From assembly GCA_026197075.1 (NCBI GenBank), contig JAPHQV010000025.1, positions 124,001 to 188,000 of the forward strand: DNA of 64,000 bases, read 5' to 3'. The notes below the pieces were generated by a model, which searched no databases, was not told the DNA's origin, and was given only the letters and a program-made list of their open reading frames with translations. This stretch comes from Gammaproteobacteria bacterium. GTDB lineage: Bacteria; Pseudomonadota; Gammaproteobacteria; DSM-19610. The translations under genes were made by a program, and so were the position numbers. This document shows, piece after piece, positions 1 through 11,660 of the stretch; the stretch's first letter is position 1; the number at the start of each line of letters is the position of its first letter.

Positions 1-1130
1 AGGCCGCCAAGGCCAACGCCTCCGACATCCACATCGAACCCGACGAAACCGTGCTGCGCATCCGCCGTCGCATCGACGGCGTGTTGCACGAGACGGTCAT
101 GGACGACAAGCGTATCGCCCCGGCGCTGATCTCGCGCCTCAAGCTCATGGGCGGCGCCGACATCTCGGAAAAACGCCTGCCCCAGGACGGACGCTTCACC
201 GTGCGCGTACGCGACAAGAGCCTGGATGTGCGCCTGGCCACCATCCCCACCCAGAACGGCGAGGCGGCAGTCATGCGCCTGCTGGACCAGGGCAACGCCA
301 CCCGTAACCTGGCGGAACTGGGCCTGCCCGAGGAACTGCTGCCGCGCCTGCGCCAGGTGATCCACAAGCCGCATGGACTGGTGCTGGTCACCGGCCCCAC
401 GGGCAGCGGCAAGACCACAACCCTCTATGCCGCGCTGACGGAACTCAACAAGCCGCAACGCAAGATCATCACCGTGGAAGACCCGGTGGAATACCGGCTG
501 CCACGCATCAACCAGGTGCAGGTGAACACCAAGATCGGGCTGGATTTCGCGCGCGTGTTGCGCACCGCCCTGCGCCTCGACCCCGACATCATCCTGGTGG
601 GCGAGATCCGCGACCGTGACACCGGCGAGATCGCCCTGCGCGCGGCACTGACCGGCCACCTGGTGTTGTCCACCCTGCATACCAACGATGCCGTGAGCAG
701 TGCCACGCGCCTCATCGACATGGGCATGGAGGGTTACCTGGTGGCCTCCGCCGTGCACGCCATCCTGGCCCAGCGCCTGGTGCGCTGCATCTGCCCCAAA
801 TGCAGCACCGAGGCAACACCCGACGCCGGCGAGGCCGCCTGGCTGCACAGCCAACTGGGCGCGAAGGCCGACGGCATGACCTTTCACCAGGGCGCCGGCT
901 GCAACCACTGCAACCACACCGGCTACAGCGGGCGCATGGGGGTCTACGAGCTGCTGGTGATGGAAGGTGCGCTGGCCGAGGCCTTGCGCCGCAACGACCA
1001 CGAGGGCTTCGAACGCGCGGCCCTGGCCCAGCCCGGCTACCAGCCGCTGGTGATGAACGCCCTCGACTATGCCAGGCAGGGCAAGACCACCCTGGGCGAG
1101 GTCATGCGCCTGAGCGGGTGGGTGGAATAG
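1..1130 (+). CDS. mshE: MSHA-type pilus assembly ATPase MshE (GspE/PilB family), 5' truncated
   Basis: Secretion/pilus assembly ATPase, partial: the frame is open from base 3 and already reads SDIHIEP, a motif internal to GspE/PilB proteins, so the true start lies outside the window. Visible motifs are Walker A GPTGSGKTTT, Walker B ILVGEIRD, the His-box stretch TGHLVLSTLHTND and a C-terminal zinc-type CPKC...CNHC pair. The family powers pilin assembly at the inner membrane by ATP hydrolysis. The next genes are a GspF-like platform protein and a run of prepilins plus a MshI-like protein, which favours MshE over PilB or GspE. Family assignment is firm; the subfamily name rests on context. Confidence 0.85.
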   Translation, partial: AAKANASDIHIEPDETVLRIRRRIDGVLHETVMDDKRIAPALISRLKLMGGADISEKRLPQDGRFTVRVRDKSLDVRLATIPTQNGEAAVMRLLDQGNATRNLAELGLPEELLPRLRQVIHKPHGLVLVTGPTGSGKTTTLYAALTELNKPQRKIITVEDPVEYRLPRINQVQVNTKIGLDFARVLRTALRLDPDIILVGEIRDRDTGEIALRAALTGHLVLSTLHTNDAVSSATRLIDMGMEGYLVASAVHAILAQRLVRCICPKCSTEATPDAGEAAWLHSQLGAKADGMTFHQGAGCNHCNHTGYSGRMGVYELLVMEGALAEALRRNDHEGFERAALAQPGYQPLVMNALDYARQGKTTLGEVMRLSGWVE

Positions 1131-1145
1131 CAGAATTCATGTAGA

Positions 1146-1200
1146 AGCGGCCTCTGGCCGCGAACTGCTCTTGCACGACGCTTCGCGGCCAGAGGCCGCT
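1146..1200. repeat. REP-like palindrome between mshE and mshG
   Basis: Perfect 19-bp inverted repeat (arms 1146-1164 and 1182-1200, core GCGGCCTCTGGCCGCGAA) with a 17-nt loop. The same core recurs at 3603-3670. It resembles the dispersed GTAGGAGCGGC-type REP elements of gammaproteobacteria. It sits within the pilus transcription unit and could attenuate or stabilise the mRNA. Confidence 0.85.
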
Positions 1201-1250
1201 CTTACGGGCAGGGACGTACAGGAAAGGTTTAGACGAGGCACGGGTTCGAA

Positions 1251-2483
1251 ATGGCACTGTTCCAATACAAGGCACGCGGCAGTCGCGGCGACGCAGTGGA
1301 AGGCACCATCGAGGCCGCCTCCAGCGACGCGGCCGCCGCACGCCTGATGGAAGGCGGACTCACGCCCGTGGATATCGTCATGGCCACGGAGACGAAGCGT
1401 GCCGGCGGCCTGAACCGTGACCTGAGCGAGATCTTCCCGCCCAAGGTGGGGCTGGCGGACCTGATCCAGTTCAGCCGCCAGATGCACAGCCTGTTGCGCG
1501 CCGGCGTGCCCATCCTCACGGCCCTGACCGGCCTGGCCGGCAACACCCGCAACCCGACCCTGGCCAAGGCCATCGCCGACATCAATACCAGCCTGGGCGC
1601 CGGTCGCGACCTGGCCTCTTCCCTGAGCCAGCACCCGGAGATTTTTTCGCTGTTCTACGTGAGCCTGGTGCGGGTGGGCGAGACCACCGGCCAGTTGGAT
1701 GAGATCTTCGAACAACTGGGCTTCTACCTGGAGCGCGAGAAACATACCAAGGAACAGGTAAAGTCGGCCCTGCGTTATCCCACCTTCGTGCTGACGGCCA
1801 TCGCCATCGCCATCGTCATCATCAACATCTTCGTCATCCCGGCCTTCGCCACCACCTTCGCCCGCTTCGGCGCCGACCTGCCCCTGGCCACCCGTGGCCT
1901 CATGGGCCTGTCCAGTTTCATGGTGAACCACTGGCCCGGCCTGCTGATCGGTCTGCTGGCGGCCTTCTTTGGCCTGCGCCACTGGCTGCGCACCCCGCAG
2001 GGACGCTATCGCTGGCACAAGCTGCAGTTGCACCTGCCCCTGATCGGTCCGGTGCTGTACCAGGCCACCATGGCGCGCTTCAGCCACCTGTTCTCCATGG
2101 CGCAGCGCTCCGGTGTTCCACTCATCACCGCCTTGTCGGTGGTGGCCAAGGCGCTGGACAACGACTACGCCGAGGAACGCATCCTCACCATGCGTGACGG
2201 CATCGAGCGCGGCGATTCCATCACCCGTACCGCCACTGCCAGTGGGGTTTTCGACCCCCTGGTGCTGCAGATGCTGGCGGTGGGCGAGGAGTCGGGCAAC
2301 CTGGATCAACTTCTGCAGGAGATTGCCGATTACTACAACCGCGAAGTCGACTACGCCATCACCCGCCTGAGCGCCGCCATAGAGCCCATCCTCACCATCG
2401 TCATCGGCCTGCTGGTGCTGGTGCTGGCCATCGGCGTGTTCCTGCCCATGTGGAACCTGGGTTCGGCGGTGATGCAGCGCTAG
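1251..2483 (+). CDS. mshG: MSHA-type pilus inner-membrane platform protein MshG (GspF/PilC family)
   Basis: 410-residue polytopic protein of the GspF/PilC family. It has the N-terminal MALFQYKARG signature, two homologous cytoplasmic T2SSF domains (about 70-190 and 275-395) with the RVGETTGQLDEIFEQL and VGEESGNLDQLL repeats, and three hydrophobic segments (about 178-198, 222-242 and 382-402). The family forms the membrane platform that couples the assembly ATPase to pilin polymerisation. It lies 120 bp after the ATPase gene with a REP hairpin in between, and 141 bp before the major pilin. ATG start at 1251; no strong Shine-Dalgarno is visible. Length is normal for the family. Confidence 0.88.
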   Translation: MALFQYKARGSRGDAVEGTIEAASSDAAAARLMEGGLTPVDIVMATETKRAGGLNRDLSEIFPPKVGLADLIQFSRQMHSLLRAGVPILTALTGLAGNTRNPTLAKAIADINTSLGAGRDLASSLSQHPEIFSLFYVSLVRVGETTGQLDEIFEQLGFYLEREKHTKEQVKSALRYPTFVLTAIAIAIVIINIFVIPAFATTFARFGADLPLATRGLMGLSSFMVNHWPGLLIGLLAAFFGLRHWLRTPQGRYRWHKLQLHLPLIGPVLYQATMARFSHLFSMAQRSGVPLITALSVVAKALDNDYAEERILTMRDGIERGDSITRTATASGVFDPLVLQMLAVGEESGNLDQLLQEIADYYNREVDYAITRLSAAIEPILTIVIGLLVLVLAIGVFLPMWNLGSAVMQR

Positions 2484-2624
2484 GAGCTTGTCGGACTTGG
2501 GCGCTGCTCGCCCGATTTGATGGAAATGGTGCCAGGTCGGTATTTTTTCTAAAGGAAATCTGCTGGGGCGACGCTATATCCCCTAGCAACGGAGGGCGGC
2601 ACGCCCTAACTAAGGAGACAAGCA

Positions 2625-2993
2625 ATGAAACGGCAACAGAGTGGTTTTACCCTGATCGAACTGGTAATGGTGATCGTCATCCTGGGCATCCTCAGCGCCA
2701 TCGCCCTGCCCCGGTTCGTGGACCTGCAAAGCGACGCCCAGGCCGCGGCGGAAGCCGGCATGAGTGGCGCGGTGAAGTCCGCCCATGCCATCGCCATCGC
2801 CGACCTCAAGGGCTTCCCGACCGTGACCGAGCTGGAGACCTATGTGCAAGGCGAAGGGGTCGCTGCCGCATCCGATGGCATCACGGTCGACATCAACGGA
2901 ATTAGTCATACGGTTCCGACCTTTACCGACACCACCTGCACCACCGCCACCAGCGACGTTGGTGACACGGTACAGTGCGTCGGCAGTATCTAG
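2625..2993 (+). CDS. mshA: MshA-like major type IV pilin
   Basis: 122-residue prepilin. A short basic leader precedes the prepilin-peptidase site [17 protein letters not shown] (Gly at residue 8, Glu +5 present), followed by the hydrophobic N-terminal helix. The C-terminal half contains a Cys pair (TTCTTAT and VQCVGSI) suited to a disulfide-bonded D-loop. It has the best ribosome-binding site of the cluster (TAAGGAG, 7 nt before ATG), as expected for the major subunit. A small GC-rich stem (AGGGCG/CGCCCT, 2593-2607) lies just upstream of the Shine-Dalgarno and could modulate initiation. Order relative to MshG and MshC-like genes supports the MshA call. Confidence 0.8.
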
Positions 2994-3108
2994 GCGCCAA
3001 ACGCCACTAGCCCGACGGCGGGCGGATCCGAGCGGGGCGGGCCAATCGGTCCGCCCTCTGTGCCTTCCACAGGGATGGTTCCACTCCCTCGCCACTGGGT
3101 CCAAGCCC

Positions 3109-3576
3109 ATGGCCATGCCATTCCACCACCGCGGCTTCACCCTGATCGAACTGATCATGGTGCTGGTGATTCTGGGCGTGCTGAGCGCCTATGTGCTGGC
3201 ACGCTGGTCACCGGGTGATTCCGCCGTGCATACCGAGGCCGCACAGCTCGCTTGCGACCTGCGCCATGCCCAGGCCCTGGCCATGACCACCGGCACCCCG
3301 CTCGACTTCGAACCCCAGGGCAGCGGTGGTTATCGCGTCACCGACGGCACCAGCATCATCCAGGACCCGTCCCGTGGCGAACCCTTCCTGCACAGCCTCG
3401 CCAATGGCGTGAACCGCGGCGGCACTTGCGGCACCGTGCGTTTCGATACCCTCGGCCGGCCACTGAGCGGTGGCAACCTGATGAGCGCTGCCTGCACCCA
3501 TACCCTGAGCGGTCCATCCGTGAGCAGCACTGTGACGCTCACCCCCGTTACCGGCTTCGTGACGGTGTCGCCATGA
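3109..3576 (+). CDS. mshC: MshC-like minor pilin
   Basis: About 155-residue prepilin-like protein: short leader, cleavage site HHRG|FTLIELIMVLVILG, hydrophobic helix to about residue 30, then a GspH/FimT-like globular domain with two cysteines (GGTCGTV and SAACTHT). ATG at 3109 is chosen, but a second in-frame ATG at 3115 is equally possible; neither has a strong Shine-Dalgarno. The stop overlaps the start of the next gene (ATGA at 3573), so translation is probably coupled. By family it would be a pilus-tip or initiation subunit. Position after the major pilin matches mshC. Confidence 0.72.
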   Translation: MAMPFHHRGFTLIELIMVLVILGVLSAYVLARWSPGDSAVHTEAAQLACDLRHAQALAMTTGTPLDFEPQGSGGYRVTDGTSIIQDPSRGEPFLHSLANGVNRGGTCGTVRFDTLGRPLSGGNLMSAACTHTLSGPSVSSTVTLTPVTGFVTVSP

Positions 3577-4079
3577 ACCGGCGCGCGGGCACCATTGGTT
3601 CCTGTAGGAGCGGCCTCTGGCCGCGAATGAGTCGTGCCACGGCCGTTCGCGGCCAGAGGCCGCTCCTACATGGGGACACAACCAAACATCCCCATGGCAC
3701 GCGTCGCCAGGCCGGCTTCAGCCTCATCGAACTGGTGATCGTCGTCGTGCTGCTGGGCATCGCCGCCGTGGCCCTGCTGCAGCAGTTCAGCCAGGCGGCG
3801 GGCTCGCTGGCCCGCAACGAGCAGATCCAGACCGCTGCACAGCTGGCCCAGGGTTGCGCCGAGCACCTGCTGGCTGTGCGGCGCGGCCAGGACTATCTCA
3901 CGGCCATCGCCAGCGATTGTTCCGGCCTGCCCGGGATCGCCGGCTACACGACCAACGTGGCGCTGCAGGGCAGCCCCGCCGCCTGTCCGCTGGGTGCCAG
4001 CTGCGAGGAACTGCGGGTGACGGTGAGTCGGGGCGCCGATGTCCGCGCGCAGCTGAGCCTGATGCTGGTGGATTACTGA
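3573..4079 (+). CDS. mshD: MshD-like minor pilin with REP-encoded long leader
   Basis: 168-residue prepilin-like protein if translation starts at the ATGA overlap with mshC. The prepilin cleavage site RRQAG|FSLIELVIVVVLLG is not reached until about residue 49, because a 68-bp REP palindrome (3603-3670) is read in frame without a stop and encodes the sequence from about SCRSGLWPR to RPLL. Normal leaders are 5-30 residues. An alternative ATG at 3627, in the loop of the hairpin, gives a 31-residue leader; no start codon lies between the REP and the cleavage site. The globular part has Cys pairs (SDCSGL, ACPLGASCEE). It overlaps mshO by one base (TGATG). Confidence 0.7.
   Translation: MNRRAGTIGSCRSGLWPRMSRATAVRGQRPLLHGDTTKHPHGTRRQAGFSLIELVIVVVLLGIAAVALLQQFSQAAGSLARNEQIQTAAQLAQGCAEHLLAVRRGQDYLTAIASDCSGLPGIAGYTTNVALQGSPAACPLGASCEELRVTVSRGADVRAQLSLMLVDY
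3603..3670. repeat. REP-like palindrome inside mshD leader
   Basis: Perfect 25-bp inverted repeat: arms 3603-3627 and 3646-3670, core TGTAGGAGCGGCCTCTGG, with an 18-nt loop. It is the same family as 1146-1200 but longer and flanked by the TGTAGGAG end typical of these elements. It lies downstream of the only start codon coupled to mshC and is an in-frame insertion in the mshD reading frame. Confidence 0.9.
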
Positions 4080-4594
4080 TGAACGGGCATCGCCAGCGCG
4101 GCTTCACCCTCATGGAACTGGTCATCAGCATCCTGGTGCTGGGTCTCCTCGGCGCCACGGCCGCCTATGGTATCCAGAAGGGCGTCATTGCCTTCCAGAC
4201 CACCCAGGAGGCCCTCGACAGCCTGGGCAAGCTGCGCTATGCCACCGAGCGGGTGAGCCGCGAACTGCGCGAGATCCGCCGCGACCCCCTCGACAGCAGC
4301 CGTTATGACATCGCCACCCTCGGTGGCAGCACCATCGAATTCGTGAAGCAGGACGGCACCGGGGTCATTCTCGACGTCAGCGGCAGCAACCTGACCCTGG
4401 AATATGACAGCCCCGCCGGCGCCCATGTCCTCACCGACCAGCTGAGCGCCTTCAGCCTGGCCTACCTGGACGTCGACGGCAATGCGACCGCCGATGCGGC
4501 ACAGGTGGCCTTCATCGATGTGCAGATCACGCTGATCGATGCCAGCGGCAGCCTGCCCCAGCGCAGCCGCGTGGCCCTGCGGAGCCAGCCATGA
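4079..4594 (+). CDS. mshO: MshO-like minor pilin
   Basis: 171-residue prepilin-like protein with the leader MNGHRQRG, cleavage before FTLMELVISILVLGLLG and a hydrophobic helix to about residue 27. The C-terminal domain is short and lacks the cysteines of its neighbours. Type II secretion GspJ/MshO-type proteins have this layout; family members are often somewhat longer. Start is fixed by a TGATG overlap with mshD, and its stop overlaps the next start by ATGA. Minor pilins of this kind are inferred to form the tip complex. Confidence 0.7.
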   Translation: MNGHRQRGFTLMELVISILVLGLLGATAAYGIQKGVIAFQTTQEALDSLGKLRYATERVSRELREIRRDPLDSSRYDIATLGGSTIEFVKQDGTGVILDVSGSNLTLEYDSPAGAHVLTDQLSAFSLAYLDVDGNATADAAQVAFIDVQITLIDASGSLPQRSRVALRSQP

Positions 4595-5568
4595 GGACGG
4601 CGCGGACACAAGGCGGTGCCGCCACCATCCTGGCGGTGATCTTCCTGGTCATCAGCGTCTCCCTCATGGTGGTGGCCGCTCTCAACATGGCCAGCTCCGA
4701 CATCACCGACACGGCCCTGACCCACGACGCCATCGAGGCCCTGTTCATCGCCGAGAGCGGGGTCGAGCACACCGCCCAGGCCTATGCCAACGGCACACCC
4801 TGCCTGGGACTGGCCCCCGTGGGGTCGATCGCCTTCGGCGCGGGTGAATTCCAGGTGACGGCTGCCAGCAATACCGATTTCGACGCCGTGACGCCCCTGC
4901 CCGCGAACCAGTGCCGCATCGAGGTGCTGGGGCAGGCCGGTCCGCGCGCTGCCCTCCGTCGAGTCGCGGCCATCCTGCAGCAGGGCAGCACCGGCCTCCA
5001 GGAGGATTTCCCCAGCTCCGCCGATTTCGCGGCCGACTGGACGCTCAATGTGACCACGGACCATGGCGGTACGGCCAAGGGCTGGTCCAGCCTGTTCGGC
5101 AACGCCCCGGGTTCCACGGGTGGACACCTGATCGGGCGCACCAACCATGGGGGTGGTGCCAACCAGAACCTCGTCCTGACCGCCACCCGGGATCTCGCCA
5201 CGCCGTTCCTGGCCACCGCCGGCATGAATCTGGAACTCAGCCTCTATTTCCAGAAACCCAACGAGAACACCGGTGGTCCGGACCAGCACAGCCTGCAATT
5301 CCTCGCCGTGGACAGCGGTGGCAACGAATACCTGATCTGGGACCGCAGTGGCCGCGAGAACGTCACCACCTGGACCGCCGTGAACCTGACCCTGGCGGTG
5401 CCGGGTGGCATGGTGGGGCAGACCATCGACCGCATCCGCGTGGCCATGGTGCTGGAGGAACAGGGCAACAACGGTGTCGCCGCCGCCGTGGACGGGATCC
5501 AGTTCGGTCCCAGCGGCAGTACCGGCGGTGGACTCAGCCTCGCCGCCTGGCGCGAGGTCGTGCAGTAA
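4591..5568 (+). CDS. mshP: MshP-like protein with C-terminal jelly-roll (lectin-like) domain
   Basis: 325-residue protein. Residues 1-130 resemble MshP/PilX: an N-terminal hydrophobic segment (about 11-33) without the usual GFTLIE, then the helix ALTHDAIEALFIAESGVEHTAQ. Residues about 135-325 form a separate Gly/Thr/Asn-rich beta domain with an FPSSADFAADW opening and a VDGIQFG end, resembling the concanavalin-like carbohydrate- or protein-binding modules that occur in MshQ proteins. MshP proteins are usually around half this length, so this looks like an MshP core fused to an adhesin module. ATGA overlap with mshO; MshI-like gene 52 bp downstream. The adhesin role is inference. Confidence 0.65.
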   Translation: MRTARTQGGAATILAVIFLVISVSLMVVAALNMASSDITDTALTHDAIEALFIAESGVEHTAQAYANGTPCLGLAPVGSIAFGAGEFQVTAASNTDFDAVTPLPANQCRIEVLGQAGPRAALRRVAAILQQGSTGLQEDFPSSADFAADWTLNVTTDHGGTAKGWSSLFGNAPGSTGGHLIGRTNHGGGANQNLVLTATRDLATPFLATAGMNLELSLYFQKPNENTGGPDQHSLQFLAVDSGGNEYLIWDRSGRENVTTWTAVNLTLAVPGGMVGQTIDRIRVAMVLEEQGNNGVAAAVDGIQFGPSGSTGGGLSLAAWREVVQ

Positions 5569-5620
5569 GGTTGAAACGCGCCCGGCCGATACCCCGGGCA
5601 GGCAACGCTGGGAGGCGAAC

Positions 5621-6553
5621 ATGCTGGCATTACTACGGAAACCGCGCAAACAGGGCTATGTGGCCATCGTGCCGCAGGAGGATGGCTGTGCCCTGGTCCA
5701 ACTGGAACGGGACGGCGAGCGAGATCGCCTGGTACAGCATGCCTTCCTGTCCGGCAACGGGGACAGCCTGTCACAACAACTGGTGGAAACCCTGCGCCAG
5801 CAGCGCCTGGGCACGCTGAGCTGCACGACCCTGATGGACATCGACCAGTACCAGCTACTGCTGGTGGACGCACCCCAGGTGCCGCCGGCCGAGTTGCGCG
5901 CCGCCATCCGCTGGCGCCTGCGCGAACTCATCGACTTCCACGTGGACGACGCCCTGGTGGACGTGTTCGATGCCCCGGCCAGCAGCGCGCGCGGGGTACA
6001 GGACCATCTCTACACGGTGGTGGCACGCAGCAACCTGGTGCAGGAGCGGGTCAACCTGGTGCAGGAGGCCGGTGCCCGCCTGGAGGTGATCGACATCCCC
6101 GAACTGGCGCTGCGCAACATCGTCGACCGCCTGCCGGAAAATCCCGCCGGCGTGGCCATGCTCTATTTCGGCGCCCACCGCGGCCTCATAACCCTGGTGC
6201 GCGACTCCACCCTCTACCTGGCCCGTCCCCTGGACATCGGTTACCGTGACCTGGAACAGTCCAGCGCCGACCCGCGTCCCCTGTGGGACACCCTGGCCCT
6301 GGAGCTGCAACGTTCCATGGATTACTACGACCGCCATTTCCAGCAGGCGCAGATCGGTCATGTGCTGCTGGCGCCCCTGCCGGTGCCGGTGCCCGGCATG
6401 GTGGAGGCCCTGCACGACAGCCTGGGCCTGGCGGTGCGTGCGGTATCCCTGGACGAGGTGGTGGAGGTGTCCGCGCCTCTCGAACCGGCGGAGGCAGCGC
6501 GCTGCTTCCTGGCCGTGGGCGCGGCACTGCGGCGTGAGTTCAAAACTCTATAG
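5621..6553 (+). CDS. mshI: MshI-like pilus biogenesis protein (PilM-type ATPase fold)
   Basis: 310-residue soluble protein resembling MSHA biogenesis protein MshI, a relative of PilM/actin-like proteins. The N-terminus is MLALLRKPRKQGYVAIV, the middle contains AIRWRLRELIDFHVDDALVDVFD, typical of PilM-like domains, and RPLDIGYRD precedes a SMDYYDRHFQ stretch usual in PilM/EpsL-type proteins. Start ATG 5621 is preceded by GGAGG (5611-5615), a good Shine-Dalgarno. Expected role: cytoplasmic part of the pilus alignment complex. In known MSHA loci mshI lies at the upstream end; here it follows mshP, so the locus is rearranged. Confidence 0.75.
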   Translation: MLALLRKPRKQGYVAIVPQEDGCALVQLERDGERDRLVQHAFLSGNGDSLSQQLVETLRQQRLGTLSCTTLMDIDQYQLLLVDAPQVPPAELRAAIRWRLRELIDFHVDDALVDVFDAPASSARGVQDHLYTVVARSNLVQERVNLVQEAGARLEVIDIPELALRNIVDRLPENPAGVAMLYFGAHRGLITLVRDSTLYLARPLDIGYRDLEQSSADPRPLWDTLALELQRSMDYYDRHFQQAQIGHVLLAPLPVPVPGMVEALHDSLGLAVRAVSLDEVVEVSAPLEPAEAARCFLAVGAALRREFKTL

Positions 6554-6636: not shown

Positions 6637-7029
6637 CTATATTTCTTTTATCTTATTAGCTGTAGATAACAAGATGACCAATGCAGAAAGTAAACCAATT
6701 TGGGCAACAAAAGACAAAGAGAATATTGCCACACTAACTTGCTCAGTCACATTCTCTTTTCCCGCTTCCAGATAATATCTGAGCAACCCCACTAATGCCG
6801 CAATCACTATCCCGCCAAGGCAGAGAAAGTAGTAACTCCAGAAATGTTCGCCGTGTAATCTCATTATCATCGGAGCGAATAAGGCGACCGGATAAATCAC
6901 CTGTATTAAAACAATAGATACCATGTCATACCTGAAATCAGGAAAAGCAATCCCCCTTACTAGAGAGACCATAAGGACATAAAGAACAAGCTGCTTACTA
7001 AATTGCACGTTGTCTAGCAATGTAACCAC
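6637..7029 (-). CDS. Small 4-TM membrane protein, putative immunity protein of the Rhs tip
   Basis: 130-residue hydrophobic protein not recognised by family. Four probable membrane helices are visible (about 14-31, 38-57, 66-86, 100-123) with few charged residues between them and a basic C-terminus (NKIKEI). GTG start: the last base of the Rhs stop codon TAG is the first base of this GTG (TAGTG), so translation should be tightly coupled. Position directly after the variable Rhs tip and low GC matching that tip are the standard arrangement for cognate immunity genes of polymorphic toxins. A membrane location would suit a toxin acting on lipid or at the membrane. Function is inferred from context only. 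Confidence 0.6.
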   Translation of the reverse strand: MVTLLDNVQFSKQLVLYVLMVSLVRGIAFPDFRYDMVSIVLIQVIYPVALFAPMIMRLHGEHFWSYYFLCLGGIVIAALVGLLRYYLEAGKENVTEQVSVAIFSLSFVAQIGLLSALVILLSTANKIKEI

Positions 7030-10000
7030 TACGGATTCGCTCCAAAGTTTTGTTGGAGGTGTTCAAACAATGTACTTGGGAAAATCGTGTTAGGCGTATT
7101 TATTCCGGCTGCGCCCAAACACTGCTGAACAAACTGAGTACAATTATTATTGTACAGATTGTAGTCTTGCTGTTGTTGCGTCCGCGCATCGATACATTGC
7201 TGCACGTTTCGATCCTGCTCTGGCGTGGTCGGTATGGTGATGTTTGATGGTGCAGCCGGATCTGGCGATATTTGCCCTGGAACATTCAGGCCCAACCCCA
7301 TTTGAATAGAACTCGCACCTGGCTGAGGTCTCTGTCCTACTGTATTCGGCGTATTAACACCCAATCCGATATGCCCAAAACCGGCCGCCGCATTGGGATT
7401 AAGCGAAACGGTAAGATCAAGCCCATACGGATCAATCCAGAAAAGCGGGTTATTCAGGGCGTAGGTGTAAGTATTTATGCCGCCGCTGAGACCGATGGGA
7501 TCGCTTGTTATGTACCTACCTGTGGACGGTTCGTAATACCGGAAGTAGTTGTAATGCAGCCCCGTCTCCTTATCGTAATGCTGGCCCGGGAACCGCAAAT
7601 TAAACACCACCTTCACTCCGTCCCCATCCGGATCCTCATCCACCGTGGCCATCCCGAACGGATCGTGTACCGCATGCCATACCCGGTTTCCTGCCGCGTC
7701 AGTCAGAGCCTTGGGCGTGCCCATGTGGTCATTATGGACATAGTACAGCCGGGTTTCATACTCGCCTGCGCGGCAATCTTGGCCGCCGAAGGCGCAGCCC
7801 ACCATGAACATGAAATCATCATAGTTGTTTACGCCATCCCCCGTGATGTCGTAGGCCGGATTTGGCGTGGGGATGTAATGTAAAAAATACCACTCGTAGA
7901 AATCCTCCGCCGTGATCACCCCGTCCCCGTCGAAATCCGCGACCAGGAAGACCTCGCTGCTGGTCGGCACCTGATCCAGCACCGCCAGAGGTTCCCCATC
8001 GAGGTAGAGGTACTCGCGCGTAACCTGGCCGGTGGGGCCGGTTTCGATCAGCAGTTCGCCATTCAGGCCATAGGCAAAGGCACGGCGATGCCCGACACCT
8101 TGTATGCCGGGAATGATCCTGGTCTTGACCACGCGCTGGCCCAGGCCATTGTAGCGGTACTCCCCCAGCCCCGTGACGCTGATTAGCCGGTTGTTGGCAT
8201 TATAGTTGAGGGTCATGCCGCGTAGGTTCGTGGTATTGCCGTTGGCATCCAGGCTGACCGCCTGGCCGCCAACCCCGCCGAGGCGGTTGCTCTGCGACGC
8301 ATAGTCGTAGCTGGTGGACTGCCCGTCGCTGACGAGCAGGGTGCGGTTGCCGTTCTGGTCATATCCGTACTCGCGGCTGCCAAAGGTGGCCGCAGTGGCC
8401 GCTTCCAGCCGGTTCAGGGCATCGTACTGGAATACCGGCTGCTCGCTGCCGGAAAAGGTCAGCAGGTTTCCGTTTCCATCATAGGCATTGTAGGGATTGA
8501 TCCATTGCTGGTAAGGCCCCGAGTATCGCCAGTTGGGACGATAGGCGCTGTCCAGGTAGGCATACCGATACTGAGCGTTCCCAAATACTCCGAACTGGAT
8601 GGGGCCGAAGGGGTATTGACTCTGCACTTGCACCAAGGTAACCGTCGGACTGCCTGGGCGGTCGAGGTCGACGCCCGTGACCTGACCGGCGGCATTGTAG
8701 TGGTAGGTGGCTTCCGCCCCGCTGGGGTAGGTGATGCGAGATACCCGGCCGACAGAGTCGTAGGCATAGTCCAGCGAGGTATCCGCATACTGGGTCCCTT
8801 GCCAGGTGGTCGCGGTCTGGTCGATGCCGGCAACCACTCCGTAGCCAGTATAGCGGTAGGCGACGACTGCTACCGGGCCGGTAATGACGCAAAGCCGTCC
8901 CTGTCCATTGAGGCAGTGGTCATACTCATGGATGAAATCGAATGCCGCAGGTCCATCGATGAGGGTCAGCCGGTTCAGGGCATCGTAGTGGTAGTGGAAC
9001 ACTTGTCCCTTGGCATCCGTCCTGGTCAGGACATTGCCGGCCTCGTCATGGGTAAAGGTGGTGACGCCGGTATCCGGGCTGGCCTGGGACAGCAGGTTGC
9101 CCAGGTCGTCATAGACATAACCGGTGTTGCCGTCGATGGGGTCGGTGACCGAGGCCAGGCGGCCACCAGCATCATAGCCGTACTGGATGGTGGCATTGGC
9201 AGTACCCGGGTCGTTTCCTCCCTGGTCCTGGACCATCTGGGTCAGGCGCTTGAGGGCGTCATAGCTATAGTCGGTGACCGATCCGCGGCCATCGGTGCTG
9301 CGCTCCAGGGTGCCGTCGGGAGCGAAGTCGTAGCTGCGCTGCTCGTTGGCCTGGGCGCTGATGTCGAGGCGGTTGTAGAGATCGAAGGTCTGGGTGAGCT
9401 GTTTCAGCAGGTAACCGTTGCTGTCGTGGATGCGCTCTGCCTCGCGGTTGCCCTCGGTGTCGAGCTGGTACTCGATGTAATTGCCGAGACCGTCGGTGAT
9501 GCGCGTCAGACGGCGGGCATCGTCATAGCCGAAGCTGAGGGTGGTGGCCTCGGGGCTGCCATGGCCCTGGGTGATGCTTTCCACCTCGCCGGTGGCGAGG
9601 TAGGTCCAGAGGGTGATGCGGCTGCTGGTGCCATCGGATTCGGTCAGCGTCTCCAGGCGGTCGTTGCCGTAGTAATAGTCGTAGGCGAGGGTGAGGCCGT
9701 TGGGGCGGGATTCGCTCATGACCTTGCCGGTGGGGGTGTACTGGATCTGGTCGCGTACCGCGACGCCCGTGGCATCGGTTACCCGCTGAAGGCGAGCGCG
9801 GTTGGCGCCCTGGCCGGGATCGTTCGGATAGTAGTTGTAGGTGGTGATGTCGGCCACGTTGCTGCGCGGGCCGTCCATGCGTGATACTTGATGCAACGGG
9901 CCCTGGTACTCCCAGGTGGTGGTGCGGTTGACGGGGGTGCCATCGGGGCGGAAGCCGTTGATGGTTTCTGAAAGGCGGTTGCCCCAGTCGTCATAGGTGT

Positions 10001-11660
10001 AGGTGGTGAGCTTTTGCTGGCCGGGCGCGACTGACGGCTCCTCGATGGAGGTGATCTTGTTGAAGAAGCGGGGGTCGTAGCTGTAATCGGTTCGGCGTTC
10101 TTTCGGTGTACCAACGGCTTCGATCTTATAACCGTACTGGCCCTTGTCGTCGTAATCCCCGTATTGAGCGGTGATGCCGTTTTGGGTCTTGGAAAGTAGA
10201 TTATTATTGTCTACATCAAAATCATAATTCGTATTACTCACGCTGCAACTAGAACATCCAGGGCCGCTGATATCATTCAGCAAGGCAACACCATGTTGTA
10301 ATATAGAGCTATAGGTAGATATTTGTCCTCGACTATTGCTTATAGAGCGCAGGCCATCCGAGTGATATTCAATGTCAATCTTGTTAGCATTTCCTGCGTG
10401 ATAGCTCGAAATGGCTCTACCATCACTTCCGTACTCAAAATACGCATATCGAATCCCTCTCTCATCTGTAATCCCAGTCAGCGCATGAGGGAAATTTGTT
10501 GCTGATGTATATATCTGTTCGTTGTAGTGATAAATCTTGACTTGGTCGTTACCGGAGCCCTCAACATCATTTGGAGGGTACGTTACTTGAATCAAGTTAT
10601 CATCTGAATCGTACTCGTATTGTATGCGTCGACCGTCATTGCTTACTGCCGCATCGGCATATCCATTCGCGCCATAAGTAAAAGATATTGACAGGCCTTG
10701 CTCTCCATTTACGGATTCCAATTTCCCAGATTCTGTATCATAGGTCAGTAATATCGATGCCCCGTTTAGGTTTGTGATGGATAAAAGTTTTGCTGTGCTT
10801 ATCTCATCACTGTATATGGCATTGTCATACGTTTCGACTGTGGAGTCTGTTGTTGTGTATTTCCATCCAGTAGCCGTCTCTTCTAGTTTAGCGTAAACAT
10901 CAGCATCTGAAATCCAACTTCCACCATCTTTCACAAATTGATAGCTCTTGCCGTCTTCTCGATATACCGTGGCAAATTCACCAAAGTCTGAAGTTATTTT
11001 CGTGATGGAACGATCGTATGTGCCGCGCCAATGCCTTCCGAATTGGCCATCCTCAACTAAACCGGCCCTGCTGTTGTAATATCTAAGTAACTCAACAGGG
11101 AAGACACCTTCGCTTATATGGTCAGTTTCAATTTGAAACTTATTACCATTCGCCAAATTTATCGGATTCCCTACAGGGCAGTTATCGTCTGGTTTTCCAG
11201 CATTCTTTCCGGCCGAATAATAGTTAACACCCGAAGCGCAGTAACCGCCGACCATGTAGTGGTCGTCATCTGTTGCATCATGCCAGTGCGTATTATTCAC
11301 ACATCGAAAATTGGTGATGGAGACTGAAGCATGCGAAGCAGAATTCGGGCACCATTCCGTTAGTCGCTTCCAATTAATTTGGTATGTGTTGCCATATAAT
11401 GCTTCTGCATAAACTATATAATCTCTCCATGTGCAGCTTGGGTCGTAATAATTGTAGTCAAGAGTTTCCCAGAACTTGTGTGCAGCCATAAAGGCCTCAT
11501 CTCGAGAGGGGAAGTACTTTCCTCGAGGGTATGTTTGGATATTTGGTTGCGAAAGGTAGTACTGTCCAGCAGCAAAAGTCTGGGATGTAGGTAGCGACAT
11601 CCATGATATGAAGGCTACGAGTATTGAAATCTTTATTTTAGAATTCTCAAAATTTAGCAT
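7029..11660 (-). CDS. Secreted Rhs/YD-repeat polymorphic toxin with permuted papain/LRAT-like tip
   Basis: 1543 residues. A Sec signal peptide (about 1-31, cleavage near TFAAG) is followed by a DUF6531-like entry around NPINLANGN (about 165), many YD repeats (about 290-1230), a pair of dockerin-like EF-hand loops (DFDGDGVITAEDF at 1242 and DITGDGVNNYDDF at 1271), and the Rhs-associated core ending DPIGLSGG...DPYGL (1410-1414), the motif at which Rhs tips are released. The 129-residue tip has GHIGLGV (His1430) and NNCTQFV (Cys1507): His before Cys, as in circularly permuted NlpC/P60 and LRAT-type enzymes. Core is GC-rich; the head (10190-11660), tip and downstream gene are AT-rich. Start ATG 11660 has GAGGA upstream. 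Secreted rather than PAAR/VgrG-linked. Confidence 0.85.
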   Translation of the reverse strand: MLNFENSKIKISILVAFISWMSLPTSQTFAAGQYYLSQPNIQTYPRGKYFPSRDEAFMAAHKFWETLDYNYYDPSCTWRDYIVYAEALYGNTYQINWKRLTEWCPNSASHASVSITNFRCVNNTHWHDATDDDHYMVGGYCASGVNYYSAGKNAGKPDDNCPVGNPINLANGNKFQIETDHISEGVFPVELLRYYNSRAGLVEDGQFGRHWRGTYDRSITKITSDFGEFATVYREDGKSYQFVKDGGSWISDADVYAKLEETATGWKYTTTDSTVETYDNAIYSDEISTAKLLSITNLNGASILLTYDTESGKLESVNGEQGLSISFTYGANGYADAAVSNDGRRIQYEYDSDDNLIQVTYPPNDVEGSGNDQVKIYHYNEQIYTSATNFPHALTGITDERGIRYAYFEYGSDGRAISSYHAGNANKIDIEYHSDGLRSISNSRGQISTYSSILQHGVALLNDISGPGCSSCSVSNTNYDFDVDNNNLLSKTQNGITAQYGDYDDKGQYGYKIEAVGTPKERRTDYSYDPRFFNKITSIEEPSVAPGQQKLTTYTYDDWGNRLSETINGFRPDGTPVNRTTTWEYQGPLHQVSRMDGPRSNVADITTYNYYPNDPGQGANRARLQRVTDATGVAVRDQIQYTPTGKVMSESRPNGLTLAYDYYYGNDRLETLTESDGTSSRITLWTYLATGEVESITQGHGSPEATTLSFGYDDARRLTRITDGLGNYIEYQLDTEGNREAERIHDSNGYLLKQLTQTFDLYNRLDISAQANEQRSYDFAPDGTLERSTDGRGSVTDYSYDALKRLTQMVQDQGGNDPGTANATIQYGYDAGGRLASVTDPIDGNTGYVYDDLGNLLSQASPDTGVTTFTHDEAGNVLTRTDAKGQVFHYHYDALNRLTLIDGPAAFDFIHEYDHCLNGQGRLCVITGPVAVVAYRYTGYGVVAGIDQTATTWQGTQYADTSLDYAYDSVGRVSRITYPSGAEATYHYNAAGQVTGVDLDRPGSPTVTLVQVQSQYPFGPIQFGVFGNAQYRYAYLDSAYRPNWRYSGPYQQWINPYNAYDGNGNLLTFSGSEQPVFQYDALNRLEAATAATFGSREYGYDQNGNRTLLVSDGQSTSYDYASQSNRLGGVGGQAVSLDANGNTTNLRGMTLNYNANNRLISVTGLGEYRYNGLGQRVVKTRIIPGIQGVGHRRAFAYGLNGELLIETGPTGQVTREYLYLDGEPLAVLDQVPTSSEVFLVADFDGDGVITAEDFYEWYFLHYIPTPNPAYDITGDGVNNYDDFMFMVGCAFGGQDCRAGEYETRLYYVHNDHMGTPKALTDAAGNRVWHAVHDPFGMATVDEDPDGDGVKVVFNLRFPGQHYDKETGLHYNYFRYYEPSTGRYITSDPIGLSGGINTYTYALNNPLFWIDPYGLDLTVSLNPNAAAGFGHIGLGVNTPNTVGQRPQPGASSIQMGLGLNVPGQISPDPAAPSNITIPTTPEQDRNVQQCIDARTQQQQDYNLYNNNCTQFVQQCLGAAGINTPNTIFPSTLFEHLQQNFGANP

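Follow-up and report, generated by a model that had tools for sequence, protein, structure and literature searches.

Canonical NlpC/P60 enzymes cleave peptidoglycan, and the circularly permuted members of the superfamily, such as LRAT and YiiX, work on lipids (PMC12994826). Direct characterization of lipid-targeting permuted NlpC/P60 toxins began in 2026 with a T6SS effector (PMC12994826). Tox-Act1, a T6SS effector of the permuted NlpC/P60 type, cleaves both PG and PE and requires its His and its Cys; its toxicity is confined to the periplasm, its immunity protein has two transmembrane (TM) segments, and DUF4105/Lnb forms a sister clade (PMC12994826). Papain-like tips have also been described on Rhs toxins, in the Tox-NlpC/P60 and Tox-PL clades, but there the Cys comes first (order C, H, D), and the words "permuted" and "LRAT" are absent from the parts of that source consulted here (PMC3482391). 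The tip of the Rhs protein described below is very probably an uncatalogued relative of the permuted NlpC/P60 toxins, carried by an Rhs protein whose genome lacks a T6SS, and is not categorically new.

The window (the whole 64,000-nucleotide stretch analyzed) encodes an Rhs protein of 1543 residues at 7029-11660 of the minus strand, on which all features of this protein and its partner lie. The open reading frame and domain profiles define a DUF6531 domain, 11 RHS repeats, an RHS domain, an Rhs-associated core and a variable tip. The hallmarks of an Rhs polymorphic toxin are thus present: RHS/YD repeats, a core ending in DPxGL and a variable C-terminal tip. The protein opens with a likely Sec signal peptide, MLNFENSKIKISILVAFISWMSLPTSQTFAA (residues about 1-31; 11568-11660), as judged by eye. 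Just before the RHS domain, at 7803-7955 (residues about 1236-1286), lies a dockerin/EF-hand-like pair of calcium loops, DFDGDGVITAEDF...DITGDGVNNYDDF, whose Pfam EF-hand and dockerin matches are weak.

The core (residues 1333-1414; 7419-7664) matches TIGR03696 (Rhs_assc_core) with an E-value of 9.7e-25, and this match stops exactly at residue 1414, the leucine of the DPYGL boundary or release motif (residues 1410-1414). The first-pass annotation had taken the tip to be the 129 residues that follow this motif, in agreement with the end of the core profile. Its interval of 7029-7417 placed the tip but included the stop codon and began one base late; residues 1415-1543 correspond to 7032-7418. 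Most of the repeat region has a GC content of 57-66%, the tip 49% and the partner gene 40%, a drop that is the usual rhs mosaic of an exchangeable tip and immunity cassette.

Inspection by eye shows no TM-like segment in the tip, which is hydrophilic and is predicted to be a circularly permuted NlpC/P60 (LRAT-like) cysteine enzyme. Its predicted catalytic base, His1430 (7371-7373), lies in FGHIGLG, and its predicted nucleophile, Cys1507 (7140-7142), lies in NNCTQFV and, according to the alignment and models, begins a predicted helix; both residues stand exactly where the first-pass annotation had put them. Between them, Thr1440 (7341-7343) of a T-x-G motif aligns with Thr or Ser in relatives and is a candidate for the third polar residue. 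Tyr1500 (7161-7163), seven residues before the cysteine, is common to LRAT proteins. Cys1514 (7119-7121), seven residues after it, occupies the position of the second cysteine reported for LRAT (PMC3142127). The pattern FGH[IVL][GS]..N[NSQ]C..F occurs in a single open reading frame of at least 60 residues in the whole window and in none of 100,000 shuffled versions of the tip; since it was composed after inspection of the tip, conservation among relatives makes a better test.

Orphan cassettes of the same tip subfamily occur elsewhere: one retains only the C-terminal part (L002, 83% identical), whereas that of Candidatus Nitrotoga (L004, 55-57% identical) lacks the His half. More distant full-length Rhs tips are found in L005 (Candidatus Thiodiazotropha endolucinida), L008, L105, L107 and L108, in a second group comprising L011, L104 and L106, and in L012. 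All of them contain GH (SH in one), followed by a cysteine that is preceded by N, S or Q, and the order is constant. A [T/S]-x-G motif follows the histidine in every one, the tyrosine is found in all aligned tips except L012, and the second cysteine is kept in most, but not all. Both the His and the Cys persist at 30% identity in the tip alignment, and a search for homologues lacking either residue, which would have spoken against the original proposal, found both in the same order in every full-length aligned relative. Two more divergent Rhs tips (L010 and L021) have an uncertain His alignment. An actinobacterial protein with NNCTQFV (L006) was rejected as a relative because its Cys precedes its His; as this motif also occurs in proteins of canonical order, it proves little by itself. 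No match to the tip was found among the phage and plasmid records searched, and no relative among the viral contigs scanned. Tips of the second group share LYTEV..W...FGHVS.N...[SW/SF]GP...NNC, and their partners, where seen, appear exported rather than multi-TM. Three small secreted proteins (L013, L015 and L022), which have no confident Pfam match, carry FYSH..G..FPHAF...DTN.GF...NC[IV]HF and also look permuted papain-like.

Searches of the tip with Pfam and NCBIfam gave nothing above a curated cut-off, and PHROGs gave only one weak match. Five Pfam matches below the cut-off (RTE1, Lnb_N, PPPDE, LRAT and Amidase_6) all fall at the NC motif; three of these families, Lnb_N, PPPDE and LRAT, are permuted papain-like. 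The LRAT family (PF04970) scored 15.2 bits against a cut-off of 24.3, and TseH (PF25218) gave no Pfam match at E-values up to 1. Profile comparison with hhalign used LRAT, Lnb_N and canonical NlpC/P60 profiles built from Pfam-defined loci. The window tip alone matched four Pfam-LRAT proteins at 90% (E-value 1.7e-6), while 12 unrelated Rhs tips reached at most 2%. A comparison with both LRAT and NlpC/P60 had been proposed from the sequence; the LRAT side was borne out, and the canonical NlpC/P60 side, at about 3%, was not. Precisely, canonical NlpC/P60 (PF00877), in which the residue order is reversed, scored 2.6% with the single tip and 4.8% with a four-tip profile.

The four-tip profile matched LRAT at 78.9% and a secreted permuted family at 88.6%, the latter not an independent result as this family was retrieved with the tip's own profile; reversed profiles scored about 0. 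Two of the distant tips (L008 and L108) taken singly scored about 1% or less against LRAT. The LRAT match is carried mainly by the half containing the Cys helix, with the His half weakly aligned. The Lnb_N profile match is weak (3-16%). In low-stringency full-length alignments with the secreted permuted family and with Lnb_N, the His residues coincide, as do the Cys residues. Rotating the canonical NlpC profile circularly gave no better match; thus, the tip resembles LRAT-type proteins and not NlpC enzymes in rotated form.

AlphaFold, supplied with three sequences in each case, was applied to the window tip and to the L005 tip. The window tip model had a pLDDT of 41 and was unusable, yielding only a chance match in a fold search. 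The model of the L005 tip (pLDDT 59) consists of five strands, a helix, the Cys helix and a further helix, with the His opening the second strand. This order of strands and helices fits a permuted papain fold, although at such low confidence the model offers hints only. Fold searches of the PDB with the tip models gave no significant match. For the L005 model, the top match among viral structures was a PPPDE protein (TM 0.46, not significant), and the PDB match of highest TM was MARTX RID (TM 0.32, E-value 4.6, not significant). Sequence searches of the PDB gave only chance matches with the tip alone and none with its profile. Together, the LRAT profile match, the conservation of His and Cys, and the low-confidence secondary structure of a relative's model support the first-pass proposal of an LRAT-type permuted papain-like tip. 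We consider the permuted papain-like fold highly probable on the strength of the sequence profiles; support for this fold and for the predicted enzyme class is good.

Comparison with the described families places the tip among them while setting it apart from each. The LRAT/HRASLS (PLA/AT) proteins of PF04970 share the hhalign match (79-90%), the [G/N]NC..F motif, the tyrosine at Cys-7 and the second cysteine at Cys+7 (PMC3142127). However, the tip has FGHxGxG...TxG, whereas the bacterial LRAT proteins examined have HH or HTG at the His. The Lnb_N/DUF4105 lipoprotein N-acyltransferases (PF13387) carry FGH as well, followed by N-[FY]-G and, close to the C-terminus, by NC, and their His and Cys align with those of the tip. 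In this case, the domain is the N-terminal part of a far larger protein, and N-x-G stands where the tip has T-x-G. The likeness to Tox-Act1/Imm-Act1 of the Salmonella SPI-6 T6SS, drawn from its published description, extends to the His-before-Cys order, the polymorphic-toxin setting, an adjacent TM immunity protein, and the same superfamily neighbors (LRAT and DUF4105/Lnb). In Tox-Act1, the residues are His43 and Cys151, 108 residues apart, compared to 77 in the window tip. Moreover, Tox-Act1 belongs to the T6SS effectors and its immunity protein has two TM segments, whereas here we find an Rhs tip, a signal-peptide-like start, no T6SS sheath gene and a four-TM partner.

This partner is a candidate immunity protein of 130 residues with a GTG start (6637-7029), which overlaps the Rhs stop codon by one base and has four TM helices as predicted by Kyte-Doolittle analysis. 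Its two nearest homologues both directly follow copies of the same tip: those behind the L002 and L004 tips are 80% and 39% identical, respectively, each with the one-base overlap. Among 369 genomes of the class, the only close homologue outside the window is the gene next to the L002 tip fragment; a distant one (26% identity) lies elsewhere in the window's own genome. The latter, at L112 1498-1896 on contig C35, shares the motif RG[LI].FPD[YF]R and lies among small genes with no obvious adjoining Rhs gene.

Genes downstream of the other tips encode 4 (L005), 3 (L008, L105, L010 and L021) or 2 (L108) TM helices; the partners of L011, L012 and L104, with 0-1 TM helices, appear to be exported, and no adjoining partner was found for L106 and L107 within the sequence read. 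In a grouping of seven loci chosen after the data had been seen, all seven tips have a partner with at least two TM helices, compared to 4 of the 21 background Rhs genes that have an open reading frame downstream (Fisher p = 0.0003). Over all tips having an adjacent gene, the fraction is 7 of 10 (p = 0.009). A membrane-embedded partner points to the envelope as the target, and the protein encoded at 6637-7029 would protect its producer there.

The T6SS sheath gene VipB/TssC (PF05943) is absent from the 99.7% complete assembly, and the Rhs protein has no Pfam match to PAAR. Given also the signal-peptide-like start, export of the Rhs protein through Sec is likely. Immediately to the left of the locus, window positions 1-6553 carry type IV pilus/T2SS-like genes (T2SSE, T2SSF, N_methyl pilin and PilM_2), MSHA-like by arrangement, that converge on the immunity gene.

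We consider it probable that this is a Sec-exported Rhs polymorphic toxin whose tip is a permuted thiol enzyme cleaving acyl bonds of envelope lipids, with the four-TM partner providing protection. After leaving through Sec, the Rhs protein would be cut at the DPYGL boundary to free the tip. The released tip would then act as a thiol enzyme like LRAT, YiiX, Lnb and Tox-Act1, in which His1430 activates Cys1507 for attack on lipids, presumably phospholipids and, less likely, lipoproteins, at their acyl ester or amide bonds. The target would be the competitor's envelope, with damage to its membrane, and the overlapping four-TM protein would shield the producer at its own membrane. The lipid target is suggested by the membrane partner and by the analogy to Tox-Act1, which makes the acyl bonds of envelope lipids the most likely substrate of the tip. 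The first-pass annotation had left amidase, peptidase and lipid hydrolase activities all open; among these, the present evidence favors lipid or acyl chemistry.

The same fold could also serve a protease, deacylase or acyltransferase directed at a protein in the cytoplasm or membrane of the target cell. PPPDE (C97) peptidases are among the weak Pfam matches, Rhs repeats are usually fused to toxins acting in the cytoplasm (PMC12994826), and the L005 model has MARTX RID as its highest-TM PDB match, albeit not a significant one. The membrane-embedded partners found across several distinct tip lineages argue instead for the envelope, which makes a protein target rather unlikely. MARTX RID itself is a permuted papain-like acyltransferase that targets host proteins. 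Within the envelope, the cell wall would be the substrate if the tip were a peptidoglycan amidase or endopeptidase of the same permuted fold, as NlpC/P60 relatives and T6SS Tae effectors cleave peptidoglycan, and weak matches to Amidase_6 (E-value 0.034, the tip) and to Tae4 (one relative) point the same way. We regard this as unlikely: immunity proteins against wall amidases are usually soluble and periplasmic, whereas the partners of these tips are mostly multi-TM; profiles of the canonical wall-cutting NlpC/P60 enzymes reach only 2.6-4.8%; and the His-then-Cys order is that of the lipid-targeting permuted families (PMC12994826, PMC3142127).

That the tip is no papain-like enzyme at all, its His and Cys being structural or coincidental and the toxin being, for example, a membrane-active peptide, seems improbable in view of the LRAT match with its clean controls, the retention of both residues among such divergent relatives and the hydrophilic character of the tip. 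This reading would be compatible with the low-confidence structure models, the lack of any match passing a curated cut-off and the kind of multi-TM partner observed, which also fits pore-formers; pore-forming toxins typically have multi-TM immunity proteins too. Returning to the lipid-cleaving thiol enzyme, one may further imagine that Rhs toxins attacking lipids form a lineage of their own, independent of the T6SS. Its members would be exported by Sec to the producer's periplasm, use a Thr/Ser-assisted permuted thiol site and need multi-TM immunity because the toxin crosses the producer's own membrane, with delivery perhaps by a surface or type II/IV-pilus-like apparatus. We consider such a lineage unlikely.

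Since no Pfam or NCBIfam model exists for the tip, such proteins are currently annotated merely as Rhs core proteins. Rhs tips of the permuted enzyme type, with mostly multi-TM partners, widen the known toxin range, and His1430, Cys1507 and the immunity gene are clear points for testing. The window's own genome encodes two more Rhs proteins (C11:54168 and C32:50495), one of which has a Cys-rich, unrelated tip next to a lipoprotein-like partner (L045).
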